Source of the DNA: Chrysophaeum taylorii
Lineage: Eukaryota; Sar; Pelagophyceae; Pelagomonadales; Pelagomonadaceae
Assembly (NCBI GenBank): GCA_029834535.1
Contig: JAQMWT010000449.1
Span: forward strand, 1 to 52,300
DNA length: 52,300 nucleotides
Direction: 5' to 3'
Below the pieces are notes generated by a model. It searched no databases. It saw only the letters and a list, made by a program, of their open reading frames with translations, and had not been told where the DNA came from. Shown in pieces: positions 1,101 through 22,463 of the stretch (within the stretch, counting starts at the first letter, position 1; every line of letters starts with the position of its first letter). Position numbers and translations under genes: made by a program.

Positions 1101-1109
1101 TCCTTAACT

Positions 1110-1728: not shown

Positions 1729-1746
1729 GACAAATCTCAGAGGGAA

Positions 1747-2281: not shown

Positions 2282-2308
2282 AGATAAGCCGATGGCATCG
2301 AGGGCTTC

Positions 2309-4138: not shown

Positions 4139-4165
4139 TATTTTTATCTCATATCCTCCACCACC

Positions 4166-4501
4166 TGTGGCGTAAGGAGAATTTTAGGGGCTACCTGGCG
4201 TGCCTTCGAATCCTGGCTCGCCGATCGCGTCCGTGCCTTTGGATGGATCACTGGACGAGGATGGCCGTTCTCCCGCCACGCGACCACAAACAACTCCTGC
4301 GCCTGGTCCTCTCAACTTGAGGATCGGCTGTTGCTTTATGATCAAGGATAATCGAAATCAGAAATCAGGGTGACACATGTCACGGAAAAGGAAGATGATG
4401 TCAGAGAAAACTCTGACATCATCGGAACGGAGTAGGGTGCCCCTGATAAGGGGGGGCCCTAGAAGAGGGATAAGCCTTAGGAGGCGGGAGTTGCCGCCAC
4501 A
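4166..4501 (-). repeat. 5' LTR of element B1 (336 bp, TG...CA)
   Basis: Minus-strand reading begins TGTGGCGGCAACTCC and ends TTACGCCACA. It is an inverted near-copy of 4661-4797 plus 5174-5373, the plus-strand LTR of B2. The start of gag lies 28 bases beyond its inner end, leaving a very short leader that begins GGTGGTGGAGG and is probably the primer-binding site. Confidence 0.7.
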
Positions 4502-4660
4502 TGTTGATACCCAAGTTTACTTTGCGCAGTGGCCGAGTTCCTGAACCGGCAATCACCCGCGTTTACCAGAGGATTCGTTCACGAGATGCTCGTAAGGCCA
4601 AGCCGCGCTCCTCGCGCTAGCACCTCGCTGGGGCAGCTCGAATTCTTACCAGGGGAGTCC
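4502..4660 (+). pseudogene. C-terminal end of pol of element B2 (family B, plus strand) and polypurine tract
   Basis: From 4504 the plus strand reads a short frame ending at TAG 4618-4620. Its segment GRVPEPAITRVYQRIRSRD aligns with NKVPADVAERAYRTIRERD at the very end of A1 pol (about 15440-15510). The stop is followed by about 40 bases and a purine-rich ACCAGGGGAGTCC directly before the LTR, the same layout as in A1. The 5' part of B2 is missing; B1 lies at the break. Confidence 0.6.
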
Positions 4661-5373
4661 TGTGCCGGCAACTCCCGCCTCCTAAGGCTTACCCCTCTTC
4701 TAGGTCCCCCCTTATCAGGGACACCCTACTCCGTTCTGATGATGTCAGTGTTTTCTATGACATCATCTTCCTTTTCCGTGACATGCGTCACCCTGATACC
4801 CTGATCGCCGACCGCATGGTTGCGACGGAGGACGGTGCCTCATGAATCCTGAGCCTTGCGAGGGCATCCGCCCTCCCGGCGTAGGTTGGCACCTATTCGC
4901 CTCCCGGGCGGGCCGGTTGGCAGCCGGAACGTTCGCAGTGGGACGGGGTATGGCCGGGGGGCGCAAACGGAAGGTTATCGACGAGTTGGTTGTCAGTCAC
5001 ATCGCGGTCTCCTCGTCGCATGGCGACAAGCTTGATGATCACTCTCCGCCGACCCACCTTTCGGCGCCCCTCGTCTACAGGCCCGTGATTCCGGACTGGC
5101 TCCTGTCGGTCCGGCCTGGCTCCCATGCTCGGGAGAGGTCTGAAGTTAGTTAGTTAGTTAGCGTCACCCTGATTTCTGTTTTTCGATATATCCTTGATCA
5201 TAAAGCAACAGCCGATCCTCAAGTTGTGAGGACCAGGCACGGAAGTTGCTTGTGGTCGTGTGGCGGGAGAACGGCCATCCTCGTCCAGTGACTCCACCAA
5301 GGGCACGGACGCGAGCGGCGAGCCAGGATTTGAAGGCACGCGAGGTAGCCCCTAAAATTCTCCTTACGCCACA
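4661..5373 (+). repeat. 3' LTR of element B2, split by retroposon copy A
   Basis: Starts TGTGCCGGCAACTCC and ends TTACGCCACA. The two halves (4661-4797 and 5174-5373) total 337 bp and match the B1 LTR in inverted orientation. The gap is filled by a 363-bp retroposon with its own 13-bp duplication. The LTR abuts 15 bp of the A2 3' LTR (5374-5388), so B2 appears inserted into A2. Confidence 0.65.
4798..5160 (+). mobile_element. Retroposon copy A, full length, (TTAG)n tail
   Basis: A 363-bp unit flanked by perfect 13-bp duplications GCGTCACCCTGAT (4785-4797 and 5161-5173). It ends in GAAGTTAGTTAGTTA, a short simple-repeat tail. Near-identical units occur at 6451-6811 and 13997-14326. Tail, long target duplications and 5' truncation of copy C fit target-primed reverse transcription by a LINE. 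It contains a 103-codon ORF (4842-5153) that is open in all copies but matches no family I know. No clear Pol III A/B boxes are visible, so it could be a SINE or the 3' end of an unseen LINE. Confidence 0.75.
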
Positions 5374-5685
5374 GGCGTTACTGCCACAGGAGCCCCCTAC
5401 TTGAGATGAAGTCGTCCTCGACTTCAAGGGTGACGAAGGTCACGCTCAAGAATGGTACGGTAAGCTCGGTCAGCTACATCAGCAGGAACTTTGTTGCTGT
5501 GGAGGCCGAAGTTACTGACGAGGACGTCGATTTCATCCGGGCGAAAATCAGTCACACAGGGTCCACAGTCGTCCATGTTTGGTCGTAGGCGTGTGAAGCT
5601 ACCTCCGTCAGTGTCCTTGTATTCTGGTCTTAAGCGTCGCTCGGCCAGAGGCTTAGTATGATCAAAAACGCGATGATCGTCGCGC
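5374..5685 (-). pseudogene. 3' end of element A2: pol C-terminus, polypurine tract and first 15 bp of 3' LTR
   Basis: Minus-strand 5685-5424 encodes the last ~85 residues of family-A pol (KPLAERRLRPEYKD... to ERDLRHP, stop). Then come the purine-rich AGTAGGGGGCTCC and TGTGGCAGTAACGCC, the first 15 bases of the family-A LTR. Joining this piece to the A2 sequence that stops at 15883, and counting GCGC once, gives a co-linear pol sequence matching A1 around 15235-15275. It is therefore the far side of A2, displaced by the insertion of A1. Confidence 0.8.
5682..5685. repeat. Target-site duplication of element A1, left copy (GCGC)
   Basis: GCGC directly precedes the TGTGG start of the A1 5' LTR. 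The same GCGC follows the ACTACA end of its 3' LTR at 15879-15882. Four-base duplications are usual for gypsy-type integrases. Confidence 0.75.
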
Positions 5686-6013
5686 TGTGGCAGTAACGCC
5701 CATTTCCCACTTGCCTGCCTGCCACCTGACTTACCCTGATTGTTGCCCTGGTATTGACCTTGCACTTATGGCGGGGGGTCATCTTGACACCCTCACCTGC
5801 GCTTCCACTGAACCCAATGTACCGGGCATTTGTATTGCTTTCTTGGTGTCTTCTTGCCATTACCCTCATTTGATTGTCCGATTTCGTGATGGCGTGAAGT
5901 ATTACGCTGAGATCGGGCGTGTGGTGGTTTCACCCGCGGTTCGGGTTGGGAGAAAGGGTTGTTGAGGCCCCTGGTCAGGCCAGGAGGGGCGGGTATCTGA
6001 GAAAACCACTACA
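5686..6013 (+). repeat. 5' LTR of element A1
   Basis: Starts TGTGGCAGTAACGCCC and ends ACCACTACA. Direct repeat of 15550-15878 with few substitutions and small indels. A related copy is at 22128-22463 in inverted orientation. Confidence 0.88.
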
Positions 6014-6064
6014 GTGGTCTCAGAAACGGGAATCGATAGTCCAACTCGCGGACTATCGATTCCC
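6014..6064 (+). promoter_or_regulatory. Primer-binding site and leader hairpins of element A1
   Basis: Immediately after the LTR comes G then TGGTCTCAGAAACGG, with the TGG expected of a site pairing to a tRNA CCA end. This stretch also pairs with the last bases of the LTR (5996-6024 forms a near-perfect hairpin with a 2-base loop). Directly downstream, 6028-6042 and 6050-6064 form a perfect 15-bp stem (GGGAATCGATAGTCC) with a 7-base loop. Equivalent hairpins are conserved in A2 near 22080-22145. A role in priming, dimerisation or packaging is inference. Confidence 0.6.
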
Positions 6065-6450
6065 TGTTTCTCGGCGGCGAGTCGGTTCGTAACGGTCGAG
6101 TGGGTGCGAAGCCGACGCATTTGTGGGTGAAGATCCAGAGGATCACGGGTACCGCCGCGGGGTTCATTTTACGTGATTCGGATCGAACGGGGAGCGGTGT
6201 CACTACGACTCAATCAGGCAAAGCATCGTAAGACCTAACCAGGCAAAGACAGAGTAAGACCTAATTTAGCTCGCGCGAGGCAGACCACCTCCCTGACGGC
6301 GAGCGACAGCACCGGGAAGGCCGTCCATAGTCTTCACGCGCAAGGCAAATACATCCGTAAGTCCAGCGCACCGGTACAGCGCACAGTCAGACGGCTGCCG
6401 GCAATTGTCGTCTGACGAAAAAGAGTGCAACAAACGAGTTGTGAGCGTTC
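6065..6450 (+). other. Untranslated leader of element A1
   Basis: No coding signal. It holds a loose duplicate of an AGGCAAAG...TAAGACCTA motif (about 6213-6270) and a self-complementary CAGACGGCTGCC/GTCGTCTGACG region (6388-6418). It matches the A2 leader (about 21690-22080, inverted), where a poly-T run at 21880 interrupts it. The leader continues after the retroposon to the gag ATG at 6858. Confidence 0.6.
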
Positions 6451-6811
6451 TAACTAACTAACTTCAGACCTCTCCCGAGCATGGGAGCCAGGCCGGACCG
6501 ACAGGTGCCAGTCCGGAATCACGGGCGTGTAGACGAGGAGCGCCGAAAGGTCGGTCGGCGGAGAGTGATCATCAAGCTTGTCGCCATGCGACGAGGAGAC
6601 CGCGATGTGACTGACAACCAACTCGTCGATAACCTTCCGTTTGCGCCCCCCGGCCATACCCCGTCCCACTGCGAACGTTCCGGCTGCCAACCGGCCCGCC
6701 CGGGAGGCGAATAGGTGCCAACCTACGCCGGGAGGGCGGATGCCCTCGCAAGGCTCAGGATTCATGAGGCACCGTCCTCCATCGCAACCGCAGTCGGCGA
6801 TCAGAGTAAGT
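6451..6811 (-). mobile_element. Retroposon copy B, full length, (TTAG)n tail
   Basis: A 361-bp minus-strand copy flanked by 13-bp duplications GTTGTGAGCGTTC (6438-6450 and 6812-6824). It contains the same 103-codon ORF as copy A (6765-6454). It sits in the A1 leader between primer site and gag, so it is younger than A1. Confidence 0.77.
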
Positions 6812-6857
6812 GTTGTGAGCGTTCGGATTAATCTTATTATCCGGGCAAAGCGCGGTC

Positions 6858-9800
6858 ATGGCAGAGAGGCCAATGACAGAACGACCGCAGTGGTTTCGGG
6901 ACGCACAGGGGCGTCTGCAACGATTCAGTGCAGGGACTCCATTTGCGTCTATTGGAAGAACACCATTCAGTACGCCCTTTCAACGGCCGGAAGCCGAGGA
7001 AAGCGGCATCGGAAGAGAGGCAAGATCATCTGATAGCCTCGACAGCCCCCCAAGCGTGGTCATCCTTCCGGATCCACGCGCCGGCGAAGGTGGAGCTACG
7101 GTTGCGCCAGACGCAACTTCAAGACCGGGTGAGCCGACGGTCCCGTACGCACGACCCTACGAACGTGCGATGAATACTACGGAGTCATCTCGAGCGGAAC
7201 CCGGACCGTTTACGGCGATGCGTGGACCAGAGGAGAGTGCACCTCCTAGGCTACCATCCGCGAATACGAGAGCGACAGATTTTCGCGTGGGTATCGACCC
7301 CAAGGTTCTGCAGACCATCGCCGAACGATTCGAGATGTACCAGTCGCAGATCGAGCAAGTCATACGTGAACTTGAGAGCACCCGCCGCGACGCGCAACAA
7401 CAACGCTCAGAAGTGGAGCGGCAGCGGATCGACAACGATCGACTTCGACGAATGGTGGAGGAATCTATGCGGGCGCATGCTCGAGAGGCACGGCCAACTT
7501 CTCCGGATGCTACTCGTGTCACGCCCGAAGAAGATGACGCTGTATCGGCATTGACCGACGATCAGCCACCGCGAAGTCGACCGGAGCCTACCCCGCACCA
7601 TCATACTGACCCCGGTGTGGCGCGTCCTCGTGACGAAGAAGAGGTACTTCATGTCAAGAAGGGAGCTGCTGGTATGACACGTATCACGTTTTCGAATCTC
7701 AATGGGCAAATTACTAAGGACTGTGATGAGGTGGACGCGTGGTGGATGCAATTGCGGCGTGTGATGGAAGGCAGAATCGACAAACCCTCAATAGCGATGA
7801 GCGTGATCGGAGGCGAGTACCAACTCGCCCCTATGGAAGCTTATCGCAAATGGGAAGCCGAACGGCCGCAGATGTGGAAACAATACAAGGAAGGAACAAT
7901 CTCGTTAAAAGAGTTGCGCCAGCATGATGAGGACTGTCTGGATGCTATGCAAGAGGCGACGAAGCTTCCTTGTCCACCTCGGGCTACGGTTGAGGAGCTT
8001 GAACGTGAATGGTTCAATTTACGACAAGGGAATTTGTCATTGAATAAGTATATTGCGCGATGGGTGCAGAAATTCGGCCAGTGGCGAGCAATGTCAGGTC
8101 GCGATACTGATCCGGCTGCGTTCCGTTCGCACTTCATTGTTGGGCTCAATTCTGAGCGCTTGCGGACGAGCGTTGAACTTGCTCAGGCCTCACCCCATAT
8201 GAAAGCATCTACTCTCACCCTCAACGATGTCATTCAATTGACCGTCCAGATTTCCAAGATTCTGGAAGCCAACCCTACTGCCAACATCGAAGAGGCGATT
8301 AAGAAGGAGAAGGGAAAGGAGCGCGCACCACGGATGAGGAGAGAACAGCAGCAGCAGAGGCAGCAGTTGCAGCCAGTCCAACGGGTTGGTTATGTTACTG
8401 ACTCGGGATTTGGAACTTGGCTACCACACGGGTTAGATAACCATACGCGTCAAGCAATTACGACGTGCCTCAGTTGCGGCCGGCGTGGTAGTTTTAACCA
8501 TAACAACGGTGTGTGTCCTGTGCCGGACAATCCCTCGAGGAAGAGGCGTGATGCTCAGACGTTGACGAATGCGGGTTTTGCAGCAACGCCACAGGGACAG
8601 GAGCAATACCGACGGGCGCTTTTAGCTGCAGCAGGACAAGCTTCAGTGACTCAGCTAGCGCCGCGCGTTGTGCAACAGCCGCAGGTGGTCTACACAGCAC
8701 CACAGGTGCCAGGTGCAGGTCAACAGCAGCTGGTTGCAGGCACCCAACAGCGTTTGGTTGCAGGGACTCAACAACAGGTGGTCCGAAGGCAGCCCGCAGT
8801 GCAGCGGACCGCTCAGACCTCGGTGCGCCTGGAGGATCTGACTACGGCTCTCAACACGATGAACTTGATTCGTCAGGCACAGCAGACGGCTCCACCGGTT
8901 AGAGGGCAAGAGTCTCAGAGAGCGAACCCTAGCCAGCGCAATGATGGTGTCGCCGCTCAGTGGCTTGAAGTGCTTGGCGAAGATCAGGATGACACTAAGC
9001 GAGCGGACTACTGCACTGTGCAGTATTCTGAGCTCATGGAGGGCAACGTGTATGACGATGACGATGTTGGGGGCGATGATGATAGCTTCTCTGCAGAAGG
9101 CTATTCCCCTGGTGACCCCATGGAACCTCCTTCCTTTTTGGTCATCACTGAAGATGCATGGGTGGAGGAGCAGGAGCAAAGTACCGAAGTGATTGGAGTT
9201 GCATCTAGAGTTCCCTCGGAAGACGAAGATAATCGTGACGAATTGGGGTATACGATTGTTCGTGTGGGACAAGATACCTTGGTCGCTATGGATATAGTGC
9301 CATCGAGGGACGACTGCGCCGAGCGTTATGCCGCTCACCCTTCCATCTCTTCGGATTTCGAGAGTTTCTGCCCTCAGACTGCGTTGAATACCACTCAGGA
9401 TCCCGACCATCGTGAAAATAAAGCCGTAAGGTACGATGGCACGAGATCCGCCTCTTTGACGTATGTGCCTGTGGCTGTCTCTTCGCTAGATGGTTCGAAA
9501 TATTCCATCATCGCCGCCGGTTTGGATGGCATGGCTGATTCCCCCTACATCGATCACCGCTTGTGTCGCAAACTTGATCGTGACGGCAAAATCATCTATC
9601 GTCAGCCACTCCCTACGATTCGTACTCTAAATGGGTCAGGAGGTTCGGGAGCTGCCATTCGAGAATGGGTCATTCTCCGGATCTCCTTGGTGCCAACGAC
9701 ATCCCTGCTGCTCATGCTCTTCGTTGGTCAAACGAATGGACAGTTACTATTAGGAGCACGAGAATTACGAGTTTTGGGTACGATTTGGGATTATGCGACA

Positions 9801-10673
9801 GAGAGAGCTAACATTCGGCGTTCTGAAGTGACCACTGGAGTTCTCAAGAATCGGACTTCCACCTCGCCACAAGACCAGCATGGAATTGTCCTTTACAATG
9901 ATGCATTCGATGCGACACCGCAGGTAGTGCAGATGTTCCCGACAGCTAAGCTTGCTTTGCAATACGGAAATATCCAAACTTGGACGCCAGTTGGTAAACC
10001 GTGGAGTTATGACAGTCAACTGCGATCTATTCGTATCAGAGCGAGTCACCATCACGTTCCTCCCGGTGATCAGACTACTGAAACAGCGGAAGACCAACTT
10101 GAATGCCCTGCAGGCGAGGAAGATATCATCCCTCATTTCGCGTACGTGACGAGTACTCGATTTCTTCTTCCAAGCCAAACGTACTTCTTGGAGATGGAGT
10201 GCGATGTGCCGCTGGAAAAGGGTCACGTATTCCGACCTTATCGATCACTCCTCCAAGATCTCCGCCTTGTACCTGGTTCCTATTCATCGTATTGCGCTGA
10301 TGAGCCCAACGAAGTTCATGTGGCTGTGGAGCATATTGGTGACGAACCCATTGGTATCGACCCCGAAGTCCCGGTGGTCGAAGGCGAGATCATGCCGCAT
10401 GAAGGATGTGTCAACATGCAGCTAGAAGCCACTGATGACGTGTGTCATGCAACTCTTACGGCTGCTGTTGACAACGATGAAGTCGAGGAGGATGTCTTGA
10501 GTGACAGACCTCCTCCTCAGCCACCTCCAGACGAAGAAGTGAAAAAAACACCAGAAATGGAGATGGAGGCGACCGCTAAGGAGCTGCTTTCTAAGCACGC
10601 CTCCTTGGTTTGGATACCCATCGCCTACACCTTTGTCGTCGTCTACTTTGCTGGAGCTGGAGGATCAACGTAG
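6858..10673 (+). CDS. Gag-protease of element A1, running into a methyltransferase domain (stops at an in-frame TAG)
   Basis: A 1271-codon ORF. Residues ~150-200 are a coiled coil. Residues ~275-470 resemble a retrotransposon capsid domain (DEVDAWWMQLRRVMEG ... LEREWFNLRQGNLSLNKYIARW). Residues ~537-553 form a CCHC-like knuckle C-X2-C-X7-H-X4-C, wider than the usual X4. Gln-rich and acidic (DDDD) linkers follow. Residues ~885-980 look like an aspartic protease in which the D-S/T-G-A site reads D-G-M-A, ending LLLGARELRVLG. The last ~40 residues start the methyltransferase with YFAGAGGST, then TAG. In A2 the same codon is TTG (Leu), so the stop is a point mutation and the ancestral ORF continued. 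Confidence 0.8.
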   Translation: MAERPMTERPQWFRDAQGRLQRFSAGTPFASIGRTPFSTPFQRPEAEESGIGREARSSDSLDSPPSVVILPDPRAGEGGATVAPDATSRPGEPTVPYARPYERAMNTTESSRAEPGPFTAMRGPEESAPPRLPSANTRATDFRVGIDPKVLQTIAERFEMYQSQIEQVIRELESTRRDAQQQRSEVERQRIDNDRLRRMVEESMRAHAREARPTSPDATRVTPEEDDAVSALTDDQPPRSRPEPTPHHHTDPGVARPRDEEEVLHVKKGAAGMTRITFSNLNGQITKDCDEVDAWWMQLRRVMEGRIDKPSIAMSVIGGEYQLAPMEAYRKWEAERPQMWKQYKEGTISLKELRQHDEDCLDAMQEATKLPCPPRATVEELEREWFNLRQGNLSLNKYIARWVQKFGQWRAMSGRDTDPAAFRSHFIVGLNSERLRTSVELAQASPHMKASTLTLNDVIQLTVQISKILEANPTANIEEAIKKEKGKERAPRMRREQQQQRQQLQPVQRVGYVTDSGFGTWLPHGLDNHTRQAITTCLSCGRRGSFNHNNGVCPVPDNPSRKRRDAQTLTNAGFAATPQGQEQYRRALLAAAGQASVTQLAPRVVQQPQVVYTAPQVPGAGQQQLVAGTQQRLVAGTQQQVVRRQPAVQRTAQTSVRLEDLTTALNTMNLIRQAQQTAPPVRGQESQRANPSQRNDGVAAQWLEVLGEDQDDTKRADYCTVQYSELMEGNVYDDDDVGGDDDSFSAEGYSPGDPMEPPSFLVITEDAWVEEQEQSTEVIGVASRVPSEDEDNRDELGYTIVRVGQDTLVAMDIVPSRDDCAERYAAHPSISSDFESFCPQTALNTTQDPDHRENKAVRYDGTRSASLTYVPVAVSSLDGSKYSIIAAGLDGMADSPYIDHRLCRKLDRDGKIIYRQPLPTIRTLNGSGGSGAAIREWVILRISLVPTTSLLLMLFVGQTNGQLLLGARELRVLGTIWDYATERANIRRSEVTTGVLKNRTSTSPQDQHGIVLYNDAFDATPQVVQMFPTAKLALQYGNIQTWTPVGKPWSYDSQLRSIRIRASHHHVPPGDQTTETAEDQLECPAGEEDIIPHFAYVTSTRFLLPSQTYFLEMECDVPLEKGHVFRPYRSLLQDLRLVPGSYSSYCADEPNEVHVAVEHIGDEPIGIDPEVPVVEGEIMPHEGCVNMQLEATDDVCHATLTAAVDNDEVEEDVLSDRPPPQPPPDEEVKKTPEMEMEATAKELLSKHASLVWIPIAYTFVVVYFAGAGGST

Positions 10674-11963
10674 GGTATCCGGCGATGCAATGAGCTATAT
10701 GGCAGTTCATTTCGCATTGTCTTGGCTTTAGATGCTTGTCCTCAAGCCCGAGCCACCTTCGAGCTCAATTTTCCGAAGATTTCCTATGTTTTGCACGAGT
10801 TGGGGAAATCTCATCGTCGTACATACGACTTGGTGTTGTCGTATTTACATTCAGATTTTTGGAAGCATTCTTATTTTCACGCCAGTCCGCCGTGTATCTA
10901 TGGGTCGACTACCAATTTGCACTATAGGGACGCACGCAAGGGCGCTACTATTTCTTCTTGGGTCCTGCGTCATTTCCGCGACGCACCTTATGTGATTGGA
11001 CGATGGACGCTCGAGCAGGAACCATCAGTGATCCCTTTTGTGCATCACCAATGTTATGTGCCGCGTATTGTCGATTTCTATAGTGTCACACCAGAGTTGC
11101 TGTGCTCGCGCACGCGCCTACTTGCTTGCAATGTTCGCTTGAACCTGCCGTTATTATCGCGTGTACCACCGAATTTAAGGGACCGTTTTGGGCCAGCGTT
11201 GGGATTTACAGGTGGTCACCCGCTCATTATAGTGAACAGTTTCTCATCTACGCGCCCGGCTATCGGCCCTGCCTTCACAGTGACGCGCAATAAGCTCCAC
11301 CTAGGACCTCATTTCTCGAACACCCGTCCACTCACGTTGCAGATGCACCAGGACATTATGACCGTTCCTGCTACGTGGCAATGGGGTGAGACAGTTTCAG
11401 AGACAGCAGCTATGAAGATGCTTGGCAGTATGGTGCCACCCGCGACTATGACGCGGATTGCGCTAGCAGTGCACAATTCGTTTGACCCTTCACTTCGAAA
11501 TTTGGGTAAGTTGCGGAATATTGCGACGACTACGCTAGCCCAACCTGATCACCATATTCTACGGTTTTCACCTTTTGCTGTCGAGTCGCGCATTCCAACG
11601 CTCGACCCTGCCACTCGAAGTGTGTCATGGATTGCGCCCGATGAACTCTATTCTCCTGCGAGTCCTGCACCATCAGCTGCTGCCCCCACCACCCCGCCAC
11701 CACCTTCAGTTACGTCGCCTGGGACGGCTTCATCTTTTGCAGGGGGCACCGTCGCCACTGCTGTTATGCAGAGCAACCAAGTCGACAACCAGCCCTCCGC
11801 AACTGCTGAAGAAGAAGGCACCGCGAAAGAGCGACCAGCGTATTTCAATAAGTACGACGTTCCGTGGGCGGACGCACCTCACGACGAACATGGTCAACCT
11901 TTACCGGTGATGCCTCCTCATTTACCCTCCGACCGTCGCGCAGGTCGAAGAGGTGATGACTGA
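10674..11963 (+). pseudogene. C5-cytosine DNA methyltransferase domain of element A1 (in frame after nonsense TAG)
   Basis: This continues the 6858 frame. Read with the preceding FAGAGG (motif I, 10648-10668) it shows: LALDACPQARATFELNFP, motif II-like; ASPPC at 10881-10895, the motif IV Pro-Cys with the catalytic cysteine; WTLEQEPSV at about 11007-11033, a motif VI (ENV)-like block; CSRTRLLACNVRL at about 11102-11140, like QxRxR of motif VIII; and PATWQW...MLGSMVPPATMTRIALAV at 11370-11475, like motifs IX-X (GNAVPP). The order is that of C5-methyltransferases. It would transfer methyl groups from S-adenosylmethionine to cytosine in DNA. A Pro/Ala linker then leads to RT. Compared with A2, about 26 nt are missing near 11925, which breaks the frame to RT. 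A separate translation start at ATG 10722 would lack motif I. Confidence 0.78.
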
Positions 11964-12675
11964 ATTGGGTATTACAGAGCATCCTGCTTTAGATGATGAC
12001 GAGAAGCTGATGATGAAGCATTTAATCTCGTATTCGTGGGCATTTTTCGATGATGTGATGAGACCTGTGGATTCACCTGAAGTGACGCTCCGGTTCAAAG
12101 AAGAGAACCCGACTCCCGTTAAACTCTCGCCATATCGGTTGTCGAAAGAAAAGATTGAATGTTTGCGGATGCAGATTGAAGCGTGGACCCGAGACGGAGT
12201 TATTCGTCCCGCGAATTCTCCATGGGGGTTCCCTATTTTGATGTTGCCTAAGAAAGGTGCTGAGCCTGGCACTTCCAATGCTTACAGAGCAGCTGTCGAT
12301 CTACGGCGCCTCAATGCATTGCTCAAGGATGATAGCTGGCCGAGTGTGAGCATGGCTGACGCGTTGATGTTTCTCATCGACAAGTTTTGTCGTTCCAGTT
12401 TGGATATTCGTTGGGGCTATCACAATTTACGATTGTCGCTAGATGCACAAGATGTGGTCACCTTCACTAGTCCTCTGGGAGCGTACAGCTACATGCGTCT
12501 ACCTTTGGGAGTCAAACCAGCCGGACGTTTGTTTTGCAAGCAGTTGAACACTGACTTGTCTCGAAATGGCTATATCGTGATCTCGCGGCATATATCGACG
12601 ATATTCTCGCCGGTCACGCAGATACAAAGAATCACTTGCAGTGCCTTGTGCAAGTTATTCCCCATCTCGGCTTGA
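11953..12675 (+). pseudogene. Reverse transcriptase of element A1, first part (frameshifted)
   Basis: The frame contains KLSPYRLSKEKIECLR, GVIRPANSPWGFPILMLPKK, AAVDLRRLNALL, SSLDIRWGYHNLRL and YMRLPLGVKPA. These are fingers and palm motifs of Ty3/gypsy RT, with the first catalytic Asp in LDIRWGYH. Near 12560 two extra bases relative to A2 shift the frame. The AYIDDILAGHAD active-site motif is still encoded at about 12585-12620 but in another frame. Confidence 0.8.
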
Positions 12676-13502
12676 AGGGGTACAGCGCCAAGATCAAGAA
12701 GATTCATTTTATGCAAGAAGTCATTGAGTTTTTTGGTCATTTATCTACCCCGAATGGACTTCTTCCATCACCAAGGTCTCTAGAAGCCGTCAGACACATG
12801 CCAATTCCTGGCACTTTGTCGGATGCTGACCCTAAGAAGCAAGTGCGGTCTTTCTTTGGAATGGGGAGTTTTTGCCGGCGTTATGTAAGGAATTTTGCGA
12901 AAGTTGCAGAGCCATTAAGACAGCTGACGTTGCCGGACGTGAAATTCAAGTGGACGAAAGAGTGTCGGGAAGCTTGGGATGCCATCATCGAGGCTATTGT
13001 CACTTCGAAGGGCGTCTATCATCCTGATTACTCGTTACCTTTTTAAATTCGAACTGATGCTTCCGCGCATGGGTTGGGTGCTTACCTATTTCAAAAAGTA
13101 CCAGTCGTTGACGACGATGGAAGAGAAAGAATCGAAGAGAGAGTTATCGAGTACTGGAGTCGAACCGTGCCTAAGTCGATGAGGAAGTACGATCCTCGGC
13201 GCTTGGAACTCCTCGCAGTACTCTCTGCTCTCGAAAATTTCCGATTTTATATCGAAGGTCATCAGACGAAGTTAGAGACGGATCATCGTAACTTTACGTT
13301 TATTCGGGATTCGAATCATACGTCTGGACAGTTAGCACGATGGGCTATGCGGCTTGCTGCGTTCGACCGGGAGCTCGGATACAAGCAGAACGACAGAACG
13401 TACAACCGCCTCAATTCTCGCACGAGTCTGAGCCAGTTGACTCCATCGAACGTCTCCCTTTTGCGGATCAAGCGGAGGATGACATTACTCTCGATGAGAT
13501 AG
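12636..13502 (+). pseudogene. RT thumb/connection and RNase H of element A1 (nonsense and deletion)
   Basis: The frame from 12636 covers HFMQEVIEFFGHLSTPNGL, VRSFFGMGSFCRRYVRNFA and HPDYSLPF, then TAA (13044-13046) where A2 reads Tyr. The same frame resumes with IRTDASAHGLGAYLF, the RNase H start, then WSRTVPKSMRKYDPRRLELLAVL and LETDHRNFTF. At about 13385 a segment of roughly 220 nt present in A2 is missing and the frame changes. The linker towards integrase continues in a third frame to a stop near 13618. Confidence 0.75.
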
Positions 13503-13620
13503 CGAAAGAACAAGCTGAGGATGAAACATGCAAGCGCATCAGACGAAATCTCGGCTCTGAACAGAAAGATCAAGACGAGCAGTCATCCGTACCATATGAG
13601 GTTGATGACAGCGTGTTGTA

Positions 13621-13996
13621 AAAGGTCGATGATTCAGCTTCTCAACGTCTTATTGTGGTCCCTCAGTCTATGCGAAAGCGTGTGATCGCCGTGCATCACC
13701 GAGGATTGTTCGGAGGCCATGTAGGACGAGACTCCACAGCGAACCAAATCTTAGAACGGTATTGGTGGCCAAACGTCTCATCATCAGTTAATGAGTTCGT
13801 CAATGCCTGCATTATTTGCCAGAAGGTTCGATCAACCATGCCTAGTCGTCATGGCTTGCACTGTCAACCGAATCGCGTCGGAGATTGCTATGTCCTAGGT
13901 ATGGATTTGATTGGACCTCTGCGAGGCGCTGACCTGTACACGTACATCCTCCCAATGTACGATGCAGCATCGCATTTCTTGAAATTAGCTCTGATC
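13621..13996 (+). pseudogene. Integrase N-terminal part of element A1, interrupted by retroposon C
   Basis: Encodes the HHCC zinc module (VHHRGLFGGHVGRDS ... NACIICQK) and the start of the catalytic core with its first Asp (LGMDLIGPLRGADLYTYI). The reading is cut at 13996 by a retroposon insertion and resumes at 14339. Confidence 0.78.
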
Positions 13997-14326
13997 TACG
14001 ACGGTGCCTTATGAATCCTGAGCCTTGCGAGGGCATCCGCCCTCCCGGCGTAGGTTGGCACCTATTCGCCTCCCGGGCGGGCCGGTTGGCAGCCGGAACG
14101 TTCGCAGTGGGACGGGGTATGGCCGGGGGGCGAAGACGGAAGGTTATCGACGAGTTGGTTGTCAGTCACATCGCGGTCTCCTCGTCGTATGGCGACAAGC
14201 TTGATGGTCACTCTCCGCCGACCGACCTTTCGGCGCTCCTCGTCTACAGGCCCGTGATTCCGGACTGGCTCCTGTCGGTCCGGCCTGGCTCCCATGCTCG
14301 GGAGAGGTATGAAGTTAGTTAGTTAG
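13997..14326 (+). mobile_element. Retroposon copy C, 5'-truncated, inserted in integrase
   Basis: A 330-bp copy lacking the first ~32 bp of copies A and B. It is flanked by a 12-bp duplication TTAGCTCTGATC (13985-13996 and 14327-14338; the first TTAG overlaps the tail repeat). It contains the 103-codon ORF (14011-14322) with a few substitutions. The uninterrupted A2 integrase at the corresponding place (about 16815-16850) shows the empty site. Confidence 0.8.
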
Positions 14327-14338
14327 TTAGCTCTGATC

Positions 14339-15514
14339 AACACAAAACGACTATTCGATCTTGAACGCGTTTGTGGACAAGATTTTACTTGGGGGATGTC
14401 TCCCACGGTGTATAGTCACGGATAATGGAAATGAGTTCGCGAACAGGTTATTTCGCACGTTTGTTCGTCAATTCAACGTACGTTATCTTACTACCCTTCC
14501 GTATAACCCTCAGAGTAATCATACTGAGCGTGTCAATCGATTCATCAAAGCCTTCTTGAGAGCTGCGATCGATGAACAGCGTCAGCCAGATTGGCCGAAT
14601 TTCCTCCCATATGTGTCATTCATGTACAATAGGATGTACATTCCGGGAACGAAGATTTCACCTTTCATGATGCGTACTGGCAACCAACCCCTGTTACCAC
14701 CCGATTACAATCTTTTGAGTGAACAACGTGATCTACCGCAATCACGTCATCAGATTTTGGTGGACTTTAAGTACAAGTTTGAATTTATAGTCGACTCGTT
14801 ACACGGGCTCACCAGAAAGCACAGGAGAGTCAAAAACTCAACTATGATGCCCACCAAATTGACATCCAGTTTTCCCCAGATGGTTATGTTCTGCGTTTCG
14901 TGCCTAAGACGCGCCAAAAGCTACGGCCCATTTGGCGCGGACCTTACATGGTTAGTAGAAAAATCTCTCCCGTCGTTTACGAAATTCAAGACGTCAACGA
15001 CGATGATGATGAATCGGTTGTAGTATCTGTACAACAGATTGTGCCTTTGAAAGTGCCAACCATCGACACTTCATCAGCCCCTCTGCATTTACCTTCAGAC
15101 CGCGACCGGTTCAAACATGGTAAGTTCGTGATTTTCAGGGTGAAAGGACGATCCAACGCGTGGAAGAAGCGTATCTATGTTGCCGAAGTCTACGAAGAAT
15201 ATGACCACGACAATGATACAGTTGCGCTTCACTCCTATACCGATTTGGGGCCACGCGATGATCCTCGCGTCTTTGATCCTCTTAAGCCTCTGGCTGAGCG
15301 ACGCTTAAGACCAGAATACAAAGATGCGGACGGAGGTAGTTTCACACGTTTACGACCAAACATGGAGGGCTGTGAACCCTGTGTGACTGATTTTCGCCCG
15401 GATGAAATCGATGTCCTCGTCACTAACTTCGGTCTCCACAGCAACAAAGTTCCTGCTGATGTAGCTGAACGAGCTTATCGTACCATTCGTGAGCGTGACC
15501 TTCGTCACCCTTGA
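14339..15514 (+). pseudogene. Integrase catalytic core and C-terminal domain of element A1
   Basis: First frame (to 15023) has VTDNGNEFANRLF with the second catalytic Asp, and PQSNHTERVNRFIKAF with the catalytic Glu. Near 14790 the frame shifts. The second frame (to 15514) has PIWRGPYMVSRKISPVVYEI, a GPY/F module typical of Ty3/gypsy integrases, and a ~150-residue extension ending ERDLRHP. I see no chromodomain. The stop lies 35 bp before the 3' LTR. Confidence 0.8.
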
Positions 15515-15535
15515 AGTCGAGGACGACTTCATCTC

Positions 15536-15549
15536 AAGTAGGGGGCTCC
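15536..15549 (+). promoter_or_regulatory. Polypurine tract of element A1
   Basis: AAGTAGGGGGCTCC directly precedes the 3' LTR start TGTGG at 15550. The family-B counterpart is ACCAGGGGAGTCC at 4648-4660. The position is that expected for plus-strand priming. Confidence 0.55.
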
Positions 15550-15878
15550 TGTGGCAGTAACGCCCATTCCCCCCACTTGCCTGCCTGCCACCTGACTTAC
15601 CCTGATTGTTGCCCTGGTATTGACCTTGCACTTATGGGGGGGGTCATCTTGACACCCTCACCTGCGCTTCCACTGAACCCAATGTACCGGGCATTTGTAT
15701 TGCTTTCTTGCTGTCTTCTTGCCATTACCCTCCTTTGATTGTCCGATTTCGTGATGGCGTGAAGTATTACGCTGAGATCGGGCGTGTGGTGGTTTCACCC
15801 GCGGTTCGGGTTGGGAGAAAGGGTTGTTGAGGCCCCTGGTCAGGCCAGGAGGGGCCGGTATCTGAGAAAACCACTACA
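15550..15878 (+). repeat. 3' LTR of element A1
   Basis: TGTGGCAG...CACTACA, 329 bp, near-identical to 5686-6013. Followed by GCGC (15879-15882), the right target-site duplication. Confidence 0.88.
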
Positions 15879-15882
15879 GCGC

Positions 15883-16450
15883 TGTCCCAAATCGGTATAG
15901 TAGTGAAGCGTCCCAAATCGTATAGTAGTGAAGCGCAACTGTATCATTGTCGTGATCATATTCTTCATAGACTTCGGCAACGTAGATGCGCTTCTTCCAC
16001 GCGTTGGATCGTCCTTCAACCCTGAAAATCACGAACTTACCATGTTTAAAACGGTCGCGGTCTGAAGGTAAATGCAGAGGGGCTGAAGAAGTGTCGATGG
16101 TTGGCACTTTTCAAAGGCACAATCTGTTGTTGTACAGATACTACAACCGATTCAGCATCATCGTCGTGAACGTCTTGAATTTCATAAACGACGGGGGAGA
16201 TGTTTCTAGTAACCTTGTAAGGTCCGCGCCAAATGGGCCGTAGCTTGTGGCGCGTCTTAGGCACGAAACGCAGAACATAATCTCCTGGGGAAAACTGGAT
16301 GTCAATTTGGTGGGCATCATAGTTGAGCTTTTGGCTCTCTTGTGCTTTTTGGTGAGCTCGTGTAACGAGTCGACTATAAAATTCAAACTTGTTCTTAAAA
16401 TCCATCAAAATCTGCTGACGTGATTGCGGTAGATCACGCTGTTCACTCAA
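15883..16450 (-). pseudogene. Integrase C-terminal region of element A2
   Basis: Minus-strand 16450-15990 encodes PIWRGPYKVTRNISPVVYEIQD (GPY/F module), LHLPSDRDRFKHGKF and YVAEVYEEYDHDNDTVALH, co-linear with A1 15000-15240. Several frame changes occur. It breaks at the A1 insertion site. Confidence 0.75.
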
Positions 16451-18227
16451 AAGATTGTAATCGGGTGGTAACAGGGTTGCTTGCCAGTGCGCATCATGAA
16501 AGGTGAAATCTTCGTTCCCGGAATGTACATCCTATTGTACATGAACGCGACATATGGGAGGAATTTCGACCAATCTGGCTGACGCTGTTCATCGATCGCA
16601 GCTCTCAAGAAGGCTTTGACAAATTGGTTGACACGTTCAGTGTGGTTACTCTGAGGGTGATACGGAAGGGTAGTACGATAACGTACGTTGAATTGACGAA
16701 CAAACGTGCGAAATAACCTGTTCGCGAACTCATTTCCATTATCCGTGACTATGCACCGTGGGAAACATCCCTCAAGTAAAATCTTGTCCACAAACGCGTT
16801 TTCAAAATTGAATAATCATGCTTGGTGTTGATCAGGGCCGATTTCAAGAAACGCGACGCTGCATCGTACATCGCAAGTATGTACGTGTACAGGTCAGCGC
16901 CTCGCAGAGGTCCAATCATATCCATACCTAGGACAGAGCAATCTCCGACGCGATTCGGTTGACAGAGCAAGCCATGACGACTAGGCATGGTGGATCGAAT
17001 CTTCTGGCAAAAAATGCAAGCATTGATGAACTCATTAACTAACGAGGAGACGTTTGGCCACCAATACCGTTCTAAGATTTGATTCGCTCTGGAGTCTCGT
17101 CCTACATGGCCTCCGAACAATCCGCGGTGATGCATGGCGATTACACGCTTTCGCATCGACTGAGGGACCACAATAAGACGTTGAGAATCCGAATCATCGA
17201 CCTCATACGACACGTTGTTATCAACTTCATACTGTACGGATGACTGCTCGTCTTGATCTTTCTGTTCAGAATCGAGATTTTGTCTGATGCGCTTGCATGT
17301 GTCATCTTCAGCTTGTTCTTTCGCTATCTCATCGAGAGTGATCTCATCCTCAGCTTGATCCGCAAAAGGAAGACGTTCGACGGAGTCAACTGGCTCAGAC
17401 TCGTACGAGAATTGAGGCGGTTGTACATTCTGTCGCGTACTAACTGCTGCCATAGCTGCGGTGGGTCCGCTGTCCGTCGGTATAGGCATCGTCACCGAAG
17501 ATAAGGTAAAACAAGCTGTGCCAGGTACATCGGTGGGGATTTCTTGGAAAATCAAAAAAGCTTCATTGATCGGTTCCCCGTCTTCGTCTTTCTCGATCAA
17601 CTTGTCGATAGGTTTGCGCGACAGACAAACCGGGATACGCATGCCAGGGGAATTTCCAGGCTTGTATCCGAGCTCCCGGTCGAACGCAGCAAGCCGCATA
17701 GCCCATCGCGCTAACTGTCCAGACGTATGATTCGAATCCCGAAATAATGTTAAATTACGATCCGTCTCTAATTTCGTCTGATGTCCTTCGATATAAAATC
17801 GGAAATTTTCAAGAGCGGAGAGTACTGCGAGGAGTTCCAAGCGCCGAGGATCATACTTCCTCATCGATTTAGGCACGGTTCGACTCCAGTACTCAAGAAC
17901 TCTCTCTTCTATTCTTTCTCTTCCATCGTCGTCAACGACTGGTACCTTTTGAAATAGGTAAGCACCCAACCCATGCGCGGAAGCATCAGTTCGAATGTAG
18001 AAAGGCAACGAGTAATCAGGATGGTAGACACCCTTCGAAGTGACAATAGCCTCGATGATGGCATCCCAAGCTTCCTGACACTCTTTCGTCCACTCGAATT
18101 TTACGTCCGGCAACGTCAGTTGTCTTAATGGCTCTGCAACTTTCGCAAAATTCCTTACATAACGCCGGCAAAAACTCCCCATTCCAAGGAAAGACCGCAC
18201 TTGCTTCTTAGGGTCAGCATCCGACAA
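16451..18227 (-). pseudogene. RNase H and integrase of element A2 (long open segment)
   Basis: A 492-codon open stretch (18227-16749) runs through VRSFLGMGSFCRRYVRNFA, FYIRTDASAHGLGAYLF, RNase H blocks, a ~75-residue linker absent from A1, and the integrase HHCC and first Asp (LGMDMIGPLRG). A frame change near 16800 leads to the segment with VTDNGNEFANRLF and PQSNHTERVNQF. The open linker shows what the undamaged RNase H-integrase junction looks like. Confidence 0.78.
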
Positions 18228-18279
18228 AGTGCCAGGGATTGTGTCTAATGGCTTCTAAAGACCTCGGTGATGGAAGAAG

Positions 18280-19230
18280 TCAGTTCGGGGTGGATAAATG
18301 ACCCAAAAACTCAATGACTTCTTGCATAAAATGAATCTTCTTGATCTTGGCGCTGTACCCTTTCAAGGCGAGATGGGGAATAACATGCACAAGGCACTGC
18401 AAGTGATTCTTTGTATCCGCGTGACCGGCGAGAATATCGTCAATATATGCCACGAGATCACGATATAGCCATTTCGACAAGTCAGTGTTCAACTGCTTGC
18501 AAAACAAACGTCCGGCTGGTTTTGACTCCCAAGGGTAGACGCATGTAGCTGTACGCTCCCAGAGGACTAGTGAAGGTTACCACATCTTGTGCATCTAGCG
18601 ACAATCGTAAATTGTGATAGCCCCAACGAATATCCAAACTGGAACGACGGAACTTGTCGATGAGAAACATCAACGCGTCAGCCATGCTCACACTCGGCCA
18701 GCTATCATATTTGAGCAATGCATTGAGGCGCCGTAGGTCGACAGCTGCCCTGTAAGCATTGGAAGTGCCAGGCTCAGCACCTTTCTTAGACAACATCAAA
18801 ATAGGGAAACCCCATGGAGAATTCGCAGGACGAATAACTCCGTCTCGGGTCCATTCTTCAATCTGCATCCGCAAGCATTCAGTCTTTTCTTTCGACAACC
18901 GATATGGCGAGAGTTTGACGGGAGTCGGGTTCTCTTCTTTGAACCGGAAAGTCACTTCAGGTGAATCCACAGGTCTCATCACATCATCGAAAAATGCCCA
19001 CGAATACGAGATTAGATGCTTCGTCATCAGCTTCTCGTCATCATCTAAAGCAGGATGCTCTGTAATACCCAATTCAGTCATCACCTCTTCGACCTGCGCG
19101 ACGGTCGGAGGGATGATCTGCATGCTCTCCTGATCCGCTAAATGAGGAGGCATCACCGGTAAAGGTTGACCATGTTCGTCGTGAGGCACGTCCGCCCACG
19201 GAACGTCGTACTTATTAAAATGCGCAGGTC
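18280..19230 (-). pseudogene. Reverse transcriptase of element A2
   Basis: The 19942-18482 open frame encodes RT up to PLGVKTSRTF, after which a frame change leads to minus-strand 18507-18280 with VAYIDDILAGHAD, the YxDD active site, and HFMQEVIEFLGHLSTPN. Another break falls between 18280 and 18227. RT is joined in one open frame to the methyltransferase tail and Pro-rich linker, which is direct evidence that the two domains belong to the same polyprotein. Confidence 0.8.
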
Positions 19231-19589
19231 TCTCCTTCGCGGTGCTTTCTTTTTCAGCAGTTGTGGAGGGCTGGTTGTTGGCTTGGTTGCTCTGCATAAC
19301 AGCAGTGGCGACGGTGCCCCCTGCAAAAGATGAAGCCGTCCCAGGCGACGTAACTGAAGGTGGTGGCGGGGTGGTGGGGGCAACAGCTGATGGTGCAGGA
19401 CTCGCACGAGAGTAGAGTTCATCGGGCGAAATCCATGACACACTTCGAGTGGCATGGTCGAGCGTTGGAATGCGCGACTCGACAGCAAAAGGTGAAAACC
19501 GTAGAATATGGTGATTAGGTTGGGCTATCGTAGTCGTCGCAATATTCCGCAACTTACCCAAATTTCGAAGTAAAGGGTCAAACGAATTG

Positions 19590-20590
19590 TGCACTGCTAG
19601 CGCGATCCGCGTCATAGTCGCGGGTGGCGCCATACTGCCAAGCATCTTCAGAGCTGCTGTCTCTGAAACTTTCTCACCCCATTGCCACGTAGCAGGAAGG
19701 GTCATAATCTTCTGGTGCATTTGCAACGTGAGTGGACGGGTGTTCGAGAAATGGGGTCCTAGGTGGAGCTTATTGCGCGTCACCGTGAAGGCAGGGCCGA
19801 TAGCCGGGCGCGTAGATGAGAATGAGCGGGTGACCACCTGTAAATCCCAACGCTGGCCCAGGCGTAAATTCGGTGGTACCTGTAAATCACGTCCCAGAGT
19901 CGTTGAACGGTGAAATCGCAGTACGTGTCCAAGAGCGAACATTGGGTGCTAAGCAAGTGCGGCGGGCCGCCGCAGCAAGCAATCGTTCTGGTACACGCGA
20001 TAATAACGGCAGTTCCAAGCGAACATTGCAAGCAAGTAGGCGCGTGCACAGCAATTCTGGTGTGATACTATAAAAATCGACAATGCGCGGCACATAAAAT
20101 TGATGCACAAAAGGGATCACTGATGGTTCCTGCTCGAGCGTCCATCGTCCAAGTACATAAGGTGCGTTGCGGAAATGACGCAGGACCCAAGAAGTAATAG
20201 TAGCGCCCTTGCGTGCGTCCCTGTAGTGTAAATTGGCAGTCGACCCATAGATACACGGCGGACTTGCGTGAAAATAAGAGTACTTCCAAAAATCTGAATG
20301 TAAATAGACCACACCAAGTCGTATGTACGACGATGAGATTTCCCCAGCTCGTGCAAAACATATGGAATCTTCGGAAAATTGAGCTCGAAGGTGGCTCGGG
20401 CTTGAGGACAAGCATCTAAAGCCAAGACAATGCGAAATGAACTGCCATATAGCTCATTGCATCGCCGGATACCCAACGTTGATCCTCCAGCGCCAGAAAA
20501 GCAGACGACGACAACGGTGTAGGTGATGGGTATCCAAACCAAGGAGGCATGCTTGGATAGCAGGTCCTTAGCAGTCGCCTCCATCTCCAT
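19590..20590 (-). pseudogene. C5-cytosine DNA methyltransferase domain of element A2
   Basis: Minus-strand 20590 on reads CFSGAGGSTLGIRR (motif I; here Leu where A1 has TAG) and LALDACPQARATFELNFP. After a single-base frame change near 20310 come ASPPCIYGST (PPC at about 20270-20257), GRWTLEQEPSVIPF and LACNVRLELPLLSR. Another break and a short insertion near 19900-20000 follow. The IX/X-like block MLGSMAPPATMTRIALAV (about 19650-19595) lies in the frame that continues into RT. Motif order equals A1. Confidence 0.78.
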
Positions 20591-21680
20591 TTCTGGTGTT
20601 TTTGCTTCACTTCTTCATCTGGAGGTGGCTCAGGAGGAGGTCTGTCACCCAAGACATCCTCCTCGACTTCGTTCTCGTCAACAGCAGCCATGAGAGTTGC
20701 ATGACAAGCGTCCTCAGTGGCCTCTAGCTGCATGTCGACACATCCATGATGCGGCATGATCTCGCCTTCCATCTTACGCTGCAACTGCACAAACCACGCG
20801 CTAACCTCATCCTGGGTCTTGGTGATTTGCCCGGTGAGAGGCGAAACGTGATACGGGTTATACTAGCAGCTCCCTTCTTGATCTGAAGTAGCTCTTCTTC
20901 GTCACGAGGACGCGCTGAACCGGGGTCATTATAATGCTGCGGGATAGGCTCCGGTTGACTTCGCGCTGGCTGATCGTCGGTCAGTGCCGATACAGCGTCT
21001 CCTCTTCGGGCGTAGCGCGTAGCATCCGGAGAGGCTGGCCGTGCCTCTCGAGCATGCGCCCGCGTGGATTCCTCCACCATTCGTCGAAGTCGATCGTTGT
21101 CGATCCGCTGCCGCTCCACTTCTGAGCGTTGTTGTTGCGCGTCGCGGCGGGTGCGCTCGATTTCAAGCAGGACGTGCTCGAGCAGCGACTGGCACATCTC
21201 GAATCGCTCGTTGATGGCCTGCAGAATCTCGGGGTCGGTATCCACTCGAAAATCTGCCGCAGCTCTCGTGTTCGCGGATGGTGGCCTAGGAGGTGCACTC
21301 TCCCCTAGTCCACGCATCGCCGTAGGAACTTTGGGGTCCGCTCGAGATGACTCCGTAGCATTCATCGCACGTTCGTAGGGTCGTGCATACGGGAACGTCG
21401 GCTCACCCGGTCTTGAAGTTGCGTCTGGCGCAACCGTAGCTCCCCCTTCGCCGGCGCGTTGATCCGGAAGGATGACCACACGCTTGGGGGGCTGTCGGGG
21501 CTATCAGATGATCTTGCCTCTCTTCCGATGCCGCTTTCCTCGGCTTCCTGTCGTTGAAAGGGCGTACTGAACGGTGTTCTTCCAATAGACGCAAATGGAG
21601 TCGCTGCACTGAGTCGTTGCAGACGCACCTGTGCGCCTCGAAACCACTACGGTCGTTCTGTCATTGGCCTTTCTGCTCAC
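20591..21680 (-). pseudogene. Gag remnant of element A2 with a 2.6-kb internal deletion
   Basis: The gag start has an early TAG where A1 has CAG (about 21650). The N-terminal region and coiled coil match A1 residues 1-270. Just after the start of the capsid domain (TRITF, QITKTQDEVSAWF, LQRKMEG) the sequence jumps to EIMPHHGCVDMQLEATEDACHATL, which lies at about 10380-10450 in A1. The junction shares GAAGGC with both parental positions in A1 (near 7766 and 10378), suggesting a microhomology deletion. Confidence 0.75.
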
Positions 21681-22127
21681 AACTCACTTGTTGTATTCCT
21701 TCTCGTCGTCAGACGACACTTGCCGGCTGCCGTCTGACTGCGCGCTGGTACCGGTGCTCTGCTGGACTTACGGTAGGATTTGCCTTGCGCGTGAAGGCTG
21801 TGGACGGCGGCCTTCCCGGTGCTGTCGCTCGCCGTCAGGAAGGTGGTCTGCCTCGCGCGAGCTAGGTTAGGGCTTACTTTGTTTTTTTTTTTTTTTGCCT
21901 AGGTAGGTCTTACAGTGCTTTGCCTCGTGGAGTCGTAGTGACTCCGCTCCCCGTTCGATCCGAATCACGTAAAATGAACCCCGCGGCGGTACCCGTGATC
22001 CTCTGGATCTTCACCCACAAATGCGTCGGCTTCGCACTCACTCGACCGTTACGAACCGACTCGCCGCCGAAAAACAAGAGATCGATAGTCCGGTAGTTGA
22101 ACTATCGATTCCCGTTTCTGAGACCAC
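21681..22127 (-). other. Untranslated leader, hairpins and primer site of element A2
   Basis: Homologous to A1 6014-6440 in inverted orientation. It holds the GAGATCGATAGTCC / AACTATCGATTCCC stem (22077-22114) and TCTGAGACCACT next to the LTR. An 18-20 base T run at about 21878-21896 is specific to this copy. Confidence 0.6.
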
Positions 22128-22463
22128 TGTAGTGGTTTTCTCAGACACCCGCCCCTCTTGGCTTGGCCGGACCAGAGGCCTCAACAACTCTTTCTCCCAC
22201 CCCGAACTGCGGGTGAAACCGCCGCGCGCCCGATCTCAGCGTAACACTCACGCCATCACGAAAATCGGTCAATCAAATGAGGGCAATAGCAAGAAGACAG
22301 CAAGAAAGCAATACAAATGCCTGGTGCTTTGGGTTCAGTGGAAGCGCAGGTGAGGATGTCAAGATGACCACCCCCCCAGAATTGCAAGGTCAGTACCAGG
22401 GGAACAATCAGGGTAAGTCAGGTGGCAGGCAGGCAAGTGGGGGGAATGGGCGTTACTGCCACA
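22128..22463 (-). repeat. 5' LTR of element A2
   Basis: Minus strand TGTGGCAGTAACGCCC...CACTACA, 336 bp, diverged from the A1 LTRs by more substitutions than these differ from each other. That agrees with A2 being the older insertion. Confidence 0.82.

Follow-up and report, generated by a model that had tools for sequence, protein, structure and literature searches.

A cytosine-methyltransferase-like domain in the Gag-Pol region of Ty3/gypsy retrotransposons of Chrysophaeum taylorii

A gypsy element and its methyltransferase-like domain

The window analyzed here is a stretch of 52,300 nucleotides from the pelagophyte Chrysophaeum taylorii (contig JAQMWT010000449.1 of assembly GCA_029834535.1, positions 1 to 52,300). 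It contains a Ty3/gypsy long terminal repeat (LTR) retrotransposon on the plus strand at positions 5686-15878, nested in an older inverted copy of its own family. Between the protease and the reverse transcriptase (RT) of this element, in the gag-pro frame, lies a domain that resembles C5-cytosine methyltransferases (Table 1). A first-pass annotation, made from the letters of the stretch, had listed the methyltransferase motifs in the order that these enzymes share, and the sequence confirms their order, frame and position. The stop-free piece 10674-11963 matches the Pfam profile PF00145 with an E-value of 8.5e-5 (22.6 bits, where the curated cut-off is 22), the matched stretch being the motif X end. 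Open copies of the family match the same profile in 12 of the 12 cases scanned, the best with E = 2e-10, and one of them also matches the NCBIfam dcm model TIGR00675 (E = 9.1e-5, a score far below that model's own cut-off).

The proposal that the element encodes its own methyltransferase is supported for the family by its open copies, as far as a methyltransferase-like domain goes, and fails for the copy in the window. There, an in-frame TAG (10671-10673) directly after FAGAGGST parts motif I from motifs II-X, so no full enzyme can come from this copy. With a stop inside the methyltransferase domain and frameshifts in pol, it is a dead pseudogene.

The window element has the hallmarks of Ty3/gypsy insertions: direct LTRs of about 330 bases with TG..CA ends (97.9% identical by blastn), a 4-bp target duplication, and a putative primer-binding site, which by its pattern may be complementary to the 3' end of a tRNA. 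A zinc knuckle and a protease (LDGMADSPYID) were assigned by eye in the gag-pro frame; a Pfam scan of that frame gave no significant match for either. The gypsy identity of the element and the location of the domain inside Gag-Pol are borne out by Pfam matches and by other family members, for example the copies L039 and L040. The long frames of both exceed the PF00145 cut-off by whole-protein score, and RVT_1 is over its cut-off in both. In L040, gag-pro, methyltransferase and RT form a single frame of 2129 amino acids; L039 also has PF17919 over its cut-off, and its downstream integrase core falls just under (32.5 versus 32.6 bits). Pfam searches of the window, L039 and L040 found neither a tyrosine recombinase nor the endonuclease-type pol of a long interspersed nuclear element (LINE), and instead found an LTR-type integrase and RNase H.

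The older inverted copy has its own 5' LTR (22127-22463) and primer-binding site (22105-22126), and its RNase H and integrase zinc-binding domain are over the Pfam cut-offs; its methyltransferase is broken by frameshifts. The two flanks of the younger insertion are contiguous in L039, where the sequence corresponding to window positions 5374-5681 (L039 8805-9116) adjoins L039 position 8803, which lies at window position 15910. A separate repeat of about 330 bases occurs three times in and near the element (4831-5162, 6450-6808 and 14000-14331), the copies being 97-98% alike. Further along the window, positions 23596-34002 hold a 3469-amino-acid frame with a strong GC skew, in which units of about 528 bases are repeated in tandem (26650-31315).

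Table 1. Features of the gypsy element and its surroundings in the window.
Feature	Position	Strand	Remarks
Continuation of older copy beyond younger insertion	5374..5681	-	reverse complement of L039 8805-9116
Left target-site duplication GCGC	5682..5685	.	matches 15879-15882
5' LTR (TG...CA)	5686..6013	+	97.9% identity to 3' LTR, blastn
Putative primer-binding site TGGTCTCAGAAACGGGAATCGA	6015..6036	+	same 22 bases in window minus-strand copy and L039
Repeat of ~330-360 nt between 5' LTR and gag	6450..6808	-	absent from L039
Gag-protease frame running into methyltransferase motif I	6819..10673	+	closed by TAG 10671-10673
C5-cytosine-methyltransferase-like domain, TAG-interrupted	about 10632..11471	+	motifs and PF00145
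FAGAGG (motif I)	10647-10664	+	gag-pro frame
ALDACPQA	from 10725	+	gag-pro frame
SPPC, catalytic Cys (motif IV)	10893-10895	+	gag-pro frame
LEQ, motif VI Glu	11013-11015	+	gag-pro frame
SRTRLL (motif VIII)	11106-11123	+	gag-pro frame
MLGSMVPPATM...AV (motif X)	11418-11471	+	gag-pro frame
Stop-free rest: methyltransferase motifs II-X and linker towards RT	10674..11963	+	frame of gag-pro
RT, frameshifted, two frames (11911-12675 and 12555-13046)	11911..13046	+	RVT_1 below cut-off per piece
RNase H	13047..13502	+	PF17917, E = 5.4e-24, over cut-off
Repeat of ~330 nt inside integrase region	14000..14331	+	absent from L039
Integrase core end and C-terminal part, frameshifted (14337-15023, 14783-15514)	14337..15514	+	PF00665 and PF22938 below cut-off
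3' LTR	15550..15878	+	blastn pairing with 5' LTR
Right target-site duplication GCGC	15879..15882	.	sequence read
Older inverted copy of same family, split by younger insertion	15883..22463	-	similarity to family

Conservation and selection among gypsy copies

We searched the window's own assembly (70.8 Mb in 697 contigs). Totals of match rows from these searches are lower bounds on the number of places, as only the best candidates were scored, although some copies yield two rows. The gypsy methyltransferase domain gave at least 148 match rows (best 140 of 843 candidates scored), from which 40 loci of the family were taken for study of the domain (L009-L040 and L043-L050, where L009 is the window copy). 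Residues were counted in the 22 rows that run unbroken through the 345-residue query, leaving out the other 18; these 22 rows represent 21 distinct copies, because L010 and L039 are one place.

The cysteine of motif IV and the glutamate of motif VI are kept in all 22 full-length rows. So is the combination of the S-adenosylmethionine (SAM) motif F.G.GG with the cysteine, and the complete PPC triplet is present in 21 of the 22, L038 having PSC. Open members of the family have therefore not lost the PPC-type cysteine or the SAM site. Variants confined to single copies are LEE for LEQ in L032, FAGSGG in L017, and the absence of one motif X proline in L046; among the 18 broken rows, L023 has LDQ, with aspartate for the motif VI glutamate, and a stop in motif I. 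Two arginines of motif VIII (R176 and R178) are invariant both in the alignment of the gypsy family (A1) and in a wider alignment (A3) described below. Two peculiarities pointed out in the first-pass annotation proved real: the motif VI asparagine is replaced, with Glu-Gln family-wide, and the target-recognition region is short, at about 50 residues from motif VIII to a conserved TxTR.

As judged from substitution ratios, the domain has been retained under purifying selection. L039 and L040, which are members of two subfamilies of the window family, have domains with 82% identity over 344 codons, and between them the nonsynonymous rate dN is 0.107 and the synonymous rate dS is 1.31, giving dN/dS = 0.082 (bootstrap 0.055-0.117). 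For the same pair, six of eight gag-pro blocks have dN/dS of 0.20-0.28 (one other is 0.10 and one not computable), and the RT has 0.02 (0.010-0.046, with 216 of 300 bootstrap draws usable). All of these ratios are rough, because dS is near saturation. Between L039 and other copies of its own subfamily, the ratio for the domain is 0.09-0.29.

The annotation had placed the methyltransferase in one family; it is present there, and it is not confined to it, since such domains also occur in two further gypsy types and in one copia family or more (see below). We chose three loci from RT matches away from the places of the window family. L062 and L063 belong to the same type (RT identity 0.96) and L061 to another. 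In L061 and L063 the domain lies between protease and RT, as in the window family, and L063 matches PF00145 (E = 3.5e-5). In L062 the frame begins inside the domain and has its second half only; RVT_1, RNase H and the integrase zinc-binding domain follow over their cut-offs, in gypsy order. The L063 type alone gave at least 144 match rows (best 144 of 955 candidates scored), in frames of up to 3067 amino acids (G000:C5). Alignment A3 combines four rows from the three gypsy types (L039, L040, L063 and L061), and in it the SAM loop F.G.GG, PPC, Glu-Gln and R.R are all invariant.

RT and methyltransferase identities group these elements alike, which fits one gain before the gypsy types split. By RT, the identities are 0.92 for L039-L040, 0.82-0.83 for L061 against L062/L063, and 0.59-0.62 across the two groups. 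By methyltransferase, they are 0.86 for L039-L040, 0.82 for L062-L063 (131 residues), 0.45-0.50 for L061 against L062/L063, and 0.35-0.42 across groups.

Copia-borne and stand-alone methyltransferases

A PF00145 profile search of the genome gave at least 57 rows (best 123 of 474 candidates scored). Two of these are stand-alone genes: L001, a gene of 360 amino acids, and L002, partly seen within a frame of 2086 amino acids. By their motifs, we take L001 to be Dnmt2-like and L002 to be Dnmt5-like. Among the other 55 rows we inspected 18, mostly for the domain alone (L003-L008, L041, L042 and L051-L060), and every one matches the L041 domain, with identities of 75-100%. L041 (G000:C96, 3096-8951), like L042, is a Ty1/copia element with its PF00145 domain between a protease-like motif, recognized by eye, and the integrase. 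Its single frame of 1952 amino acids matches PF00145 (1.1e-7), then an integrase below cut-off, then the copia-type RT profile RVT_2 (1.6e-38).

This copia domain family has at least 106 match rows (best 99 of 697 candidates scored). PC and ENV are present in nine of nine aligned copies, and dN/dS between L041 and L051 is 0.093 (0.062-0.129), which indicates purifying selection. The copia domain is apparently unrelated to the gypsy domain. Profile comparisons between the two (A1 and A3 against A2) gave no match, so separate gains are probable; a single shared origin is unsupported by these comparisons, which fast divergence could also have emptied.

Four other copia elements (L064, L065 at 1023-6095 on the minus strand, L066 and L068) show, on inspection by eye, methyltransferase-like motifs before the integrase. 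L064 and L065 were scanned with Pfam, which found no methyltransferase in either; an alignment of L065 to the L041 domain has only 20% identity and places Cys, Glu and Arg in register. A LINE-like locus, L067, has endonuclease and RT only. Contig G000:C696 holds eight RVT_1 rows in long frames, including the four best scores of the RT search; these may be maturases of group II introns, and the contig may be organellar.

Possible roles of the element-borne enzyme

We give a probability of roughly 0.6 to the following reading: a Ty3/gypsy lineage acquired, between protease and RT, a C5-cytosine-methyltransferase domain, and the selected enzyme, made in Gag-Pol, would methylate the element's own complementary DNA (cDNA) or chromatin at insertion sites. 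The capture probably came before the split of several gypsy families of this genome. The enzyme would be synthesized within Gag-Pol, packaged into the particle and brought to the cDNA; cDNA would be its natural substrate, because an enzyme in Gag-Pol would share the particle with RT. Its most likely role may be to methylate new cDNA, or the chromatin beside fresh insertions, and methylated copies might thereby be taken for host-marked DNA, or be spared a response to unmethylated foreign DNA.

Several results weigh against this reading. The gypsy domain lacks the motif VI ENV of C5-methyltransferases, keeping the Glu and having Gln for Asn. An AlphaFold model of the window piece alone (no alignment, motif I not included) has a pLDDT (predicted local distance difference test) of 32.8, too low to inform on the fold. 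A search of the Protein Data Bank (PDB) found nothing with the A1 profile, and the top row listed for A3 (E = 0.026) is an odorant-binding protein. A Pfam scan of the 737-amino-acid frame of L061 gave no match at all. The order of identities conflicts between the two domains, L039 being closer to L061 by RT (0.61 versus 0.59) and closer to L063 by methyltransferase (0.42 versus 0.37 for L061). Ratios of dN/dS are high between L039 and the degraded, stop-bearing copies L050 (0.72) and L043 (0.40), and the L040-L047 value of 0.96 (interval 0.31-4.6) has too few changes behind it to tell. Finally, singleton transitions in the copies occur at 0.177 per CpG site, 0.124 per other C/G site and 0.148 per A/T site, and this small excess of CpG decay gives no indication that CpG sites of integrated copies are densely methylated over the long term. 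The methylation footprint is weak at most: the observed/expected ratio of CpG is 1.06-1.12 for both copies in the window, versus 1.32-1.42 in window stretches beyond 24 kb. Low CpG decay is compatible with methyl marking of the cDNA.

One alternative is that the enzyme is a Dnmt2-like RNA methyltransferase that marks element RNA or the tRNA primer and so helps packaging, priming or RNA stability. We consider this unlikely. It is a real rival nonetheless, because the better stand-alone match of A3, weak as it is, is to the Dnmt2-like L001: in a single hhalign comparison the two are in register from motif I to motif VIII (E = 2.5e-4, probability 43%), whereas the pairwise comparison of A3 with L002 gave no alignment (E = 0.41). 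A tRNA C38 methyltransferase and DNMT2 are among the weaker PDB rows for A3 (E = 0.91 and 1.1), and RNA methylation was proposed for a LINE-borne enzyme inactive on DNA in yeast (PMC5890265). However, two cytosine-specific methyltransferases rank better, directly after the odorant-binding protein (E = 0.53), the alignment to L001 is weak, and L001 is labelled Dnmt2-like from a motif only. It is also improbable that catalysis has been lost and that the domain has become a spacer in Pol with a structural or DNA-binding function. The Glu-Gln replacement, the short target-recognition region and the lack of confidence in the AlphaFold model would suit such a spacer, but the SAM loop, the PPC cysteine, the motif VI glutamate and two motif VIII arginines are invariant in A3 despite identities of 35-42%.

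Still less probable, in our judgement, is an enzyme that serves the host by marking the element for silencing and keeping its load tolerable. Such a benefit is raised in the discussion of PMC5890265, and the stand-alone gene L002 could maintain marks set by the element's enzyme; yet host benefit hardly explains selection within element lineages, and the copies show little CpG decay. That the resemblance is due to chance, or that a gag-pol linker was misread, can be rejected with near certainty. The match in the window is modest and the L061 frame has no Pfam match, but E-values reach 2e-10 in other copies, a second profile library agrees, the motifs are in order, and the key residues are conserved at 35-42% identity. 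As for the source of the domain, we rejected a viral origin: no relative was among the 40 and 229 stretches that two scans of viral contigs matched. Protein database searches with the element domains gave no match, in a design where the copia domain was queried inside a long frame and shorter relatives fell outside the candidates.

The reading of capture by a gypsy lineage has precedents. Retrotransposon-borne cytosine methyltransferases are already known, one gypsy family included: PMC5890265 (2018) reports them in LINE, DIRS and Gypsy elements, with purifying selection on the element-borne DNMTs and, for those carried by DIRS elements, de novo methylation of CG sites in yeast. KnitGypsy-Dnmt3 of Klebsormidium nitens resembles the window family in being a Gypsy element with a cytosine methyltransferase in the Pol frame, conserved key residues and purifying selection (Ka/Ks below 0.2). 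It is Dnmt3-class with DIRS-like repeats, whereas the window element has plain direct LTRs and a 4-bp duplication. SymbioLINE-Dnmt and SymbioDIRS-Dnmt3 of Symbiodinium are likewise present in many copies per genome with selected methyltransferases, and the class carried by the LINE forms an orphan lineage, which the window gypsy enzyme may do as well; they are LINE and DIRS elements, whereas the window family is an LTR element with an integrase. PMC5890265 describes Copia of Symbiodinium as without any DNMT domain, unlike the copia family here. PMC12344493 mentions LTR Copia and DIRS elements that carry DNMT3, as well as scattered orphan DNMTs; its cases are of DNMT3 class, in streptophytes and dinoflagellates, and its "Copia" may be a slip, because the 2018 paper that it cites reports Gypsy, LINE and DIRS. 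Sola1-1 of Ectocarpus (PMC12477816) is another element that possibly marks its own DNA; it differs in being a DNA transposon, with an N4C/N6A methyltransferase (another chemistry) in a separate gene with a ParB-like domain.

The PDB listings for A1 and A3 contain no Dnmt3. The motifs of the window gypsy domain (F.GAGG, PPC, EQ and VPP) are presumably unlike those of Dnmt3. What is new is the double occurrence in gypsy and copia elements, and a divergent enzyme with Glu-Gln for Glu-Asn in motif VI; we found no such gypsy-plus-copia pair in one genome in the open-access literature, outside which most subscription journals and preprints lie. Somewhat short of an even chance, we think, is the fuller scenario of one capture by gypsy and another by copia elements, with unrelated C5-methyltransferases that came to lie downstream of the protease and are now constrained components of Pol.

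Cytosine methylation is known above all as a defence against transposons. Elements with a methyltransferase of their own would reverse that relation, and few cases came up in our literature searches. If this fuller scenario is true, hundreds of element-borne methyltransferase copies face a few host genes in a compact genome, and the element enzymes, whether directed at DNA or even at tRNA, could shape host methylation. Because open copies, degraded copies and stand-alone methyltransferases occur together in a genome of 70.8 Mb, the benefit of such an enzyme to its element would be testable in Chrysophaeum taylorii.

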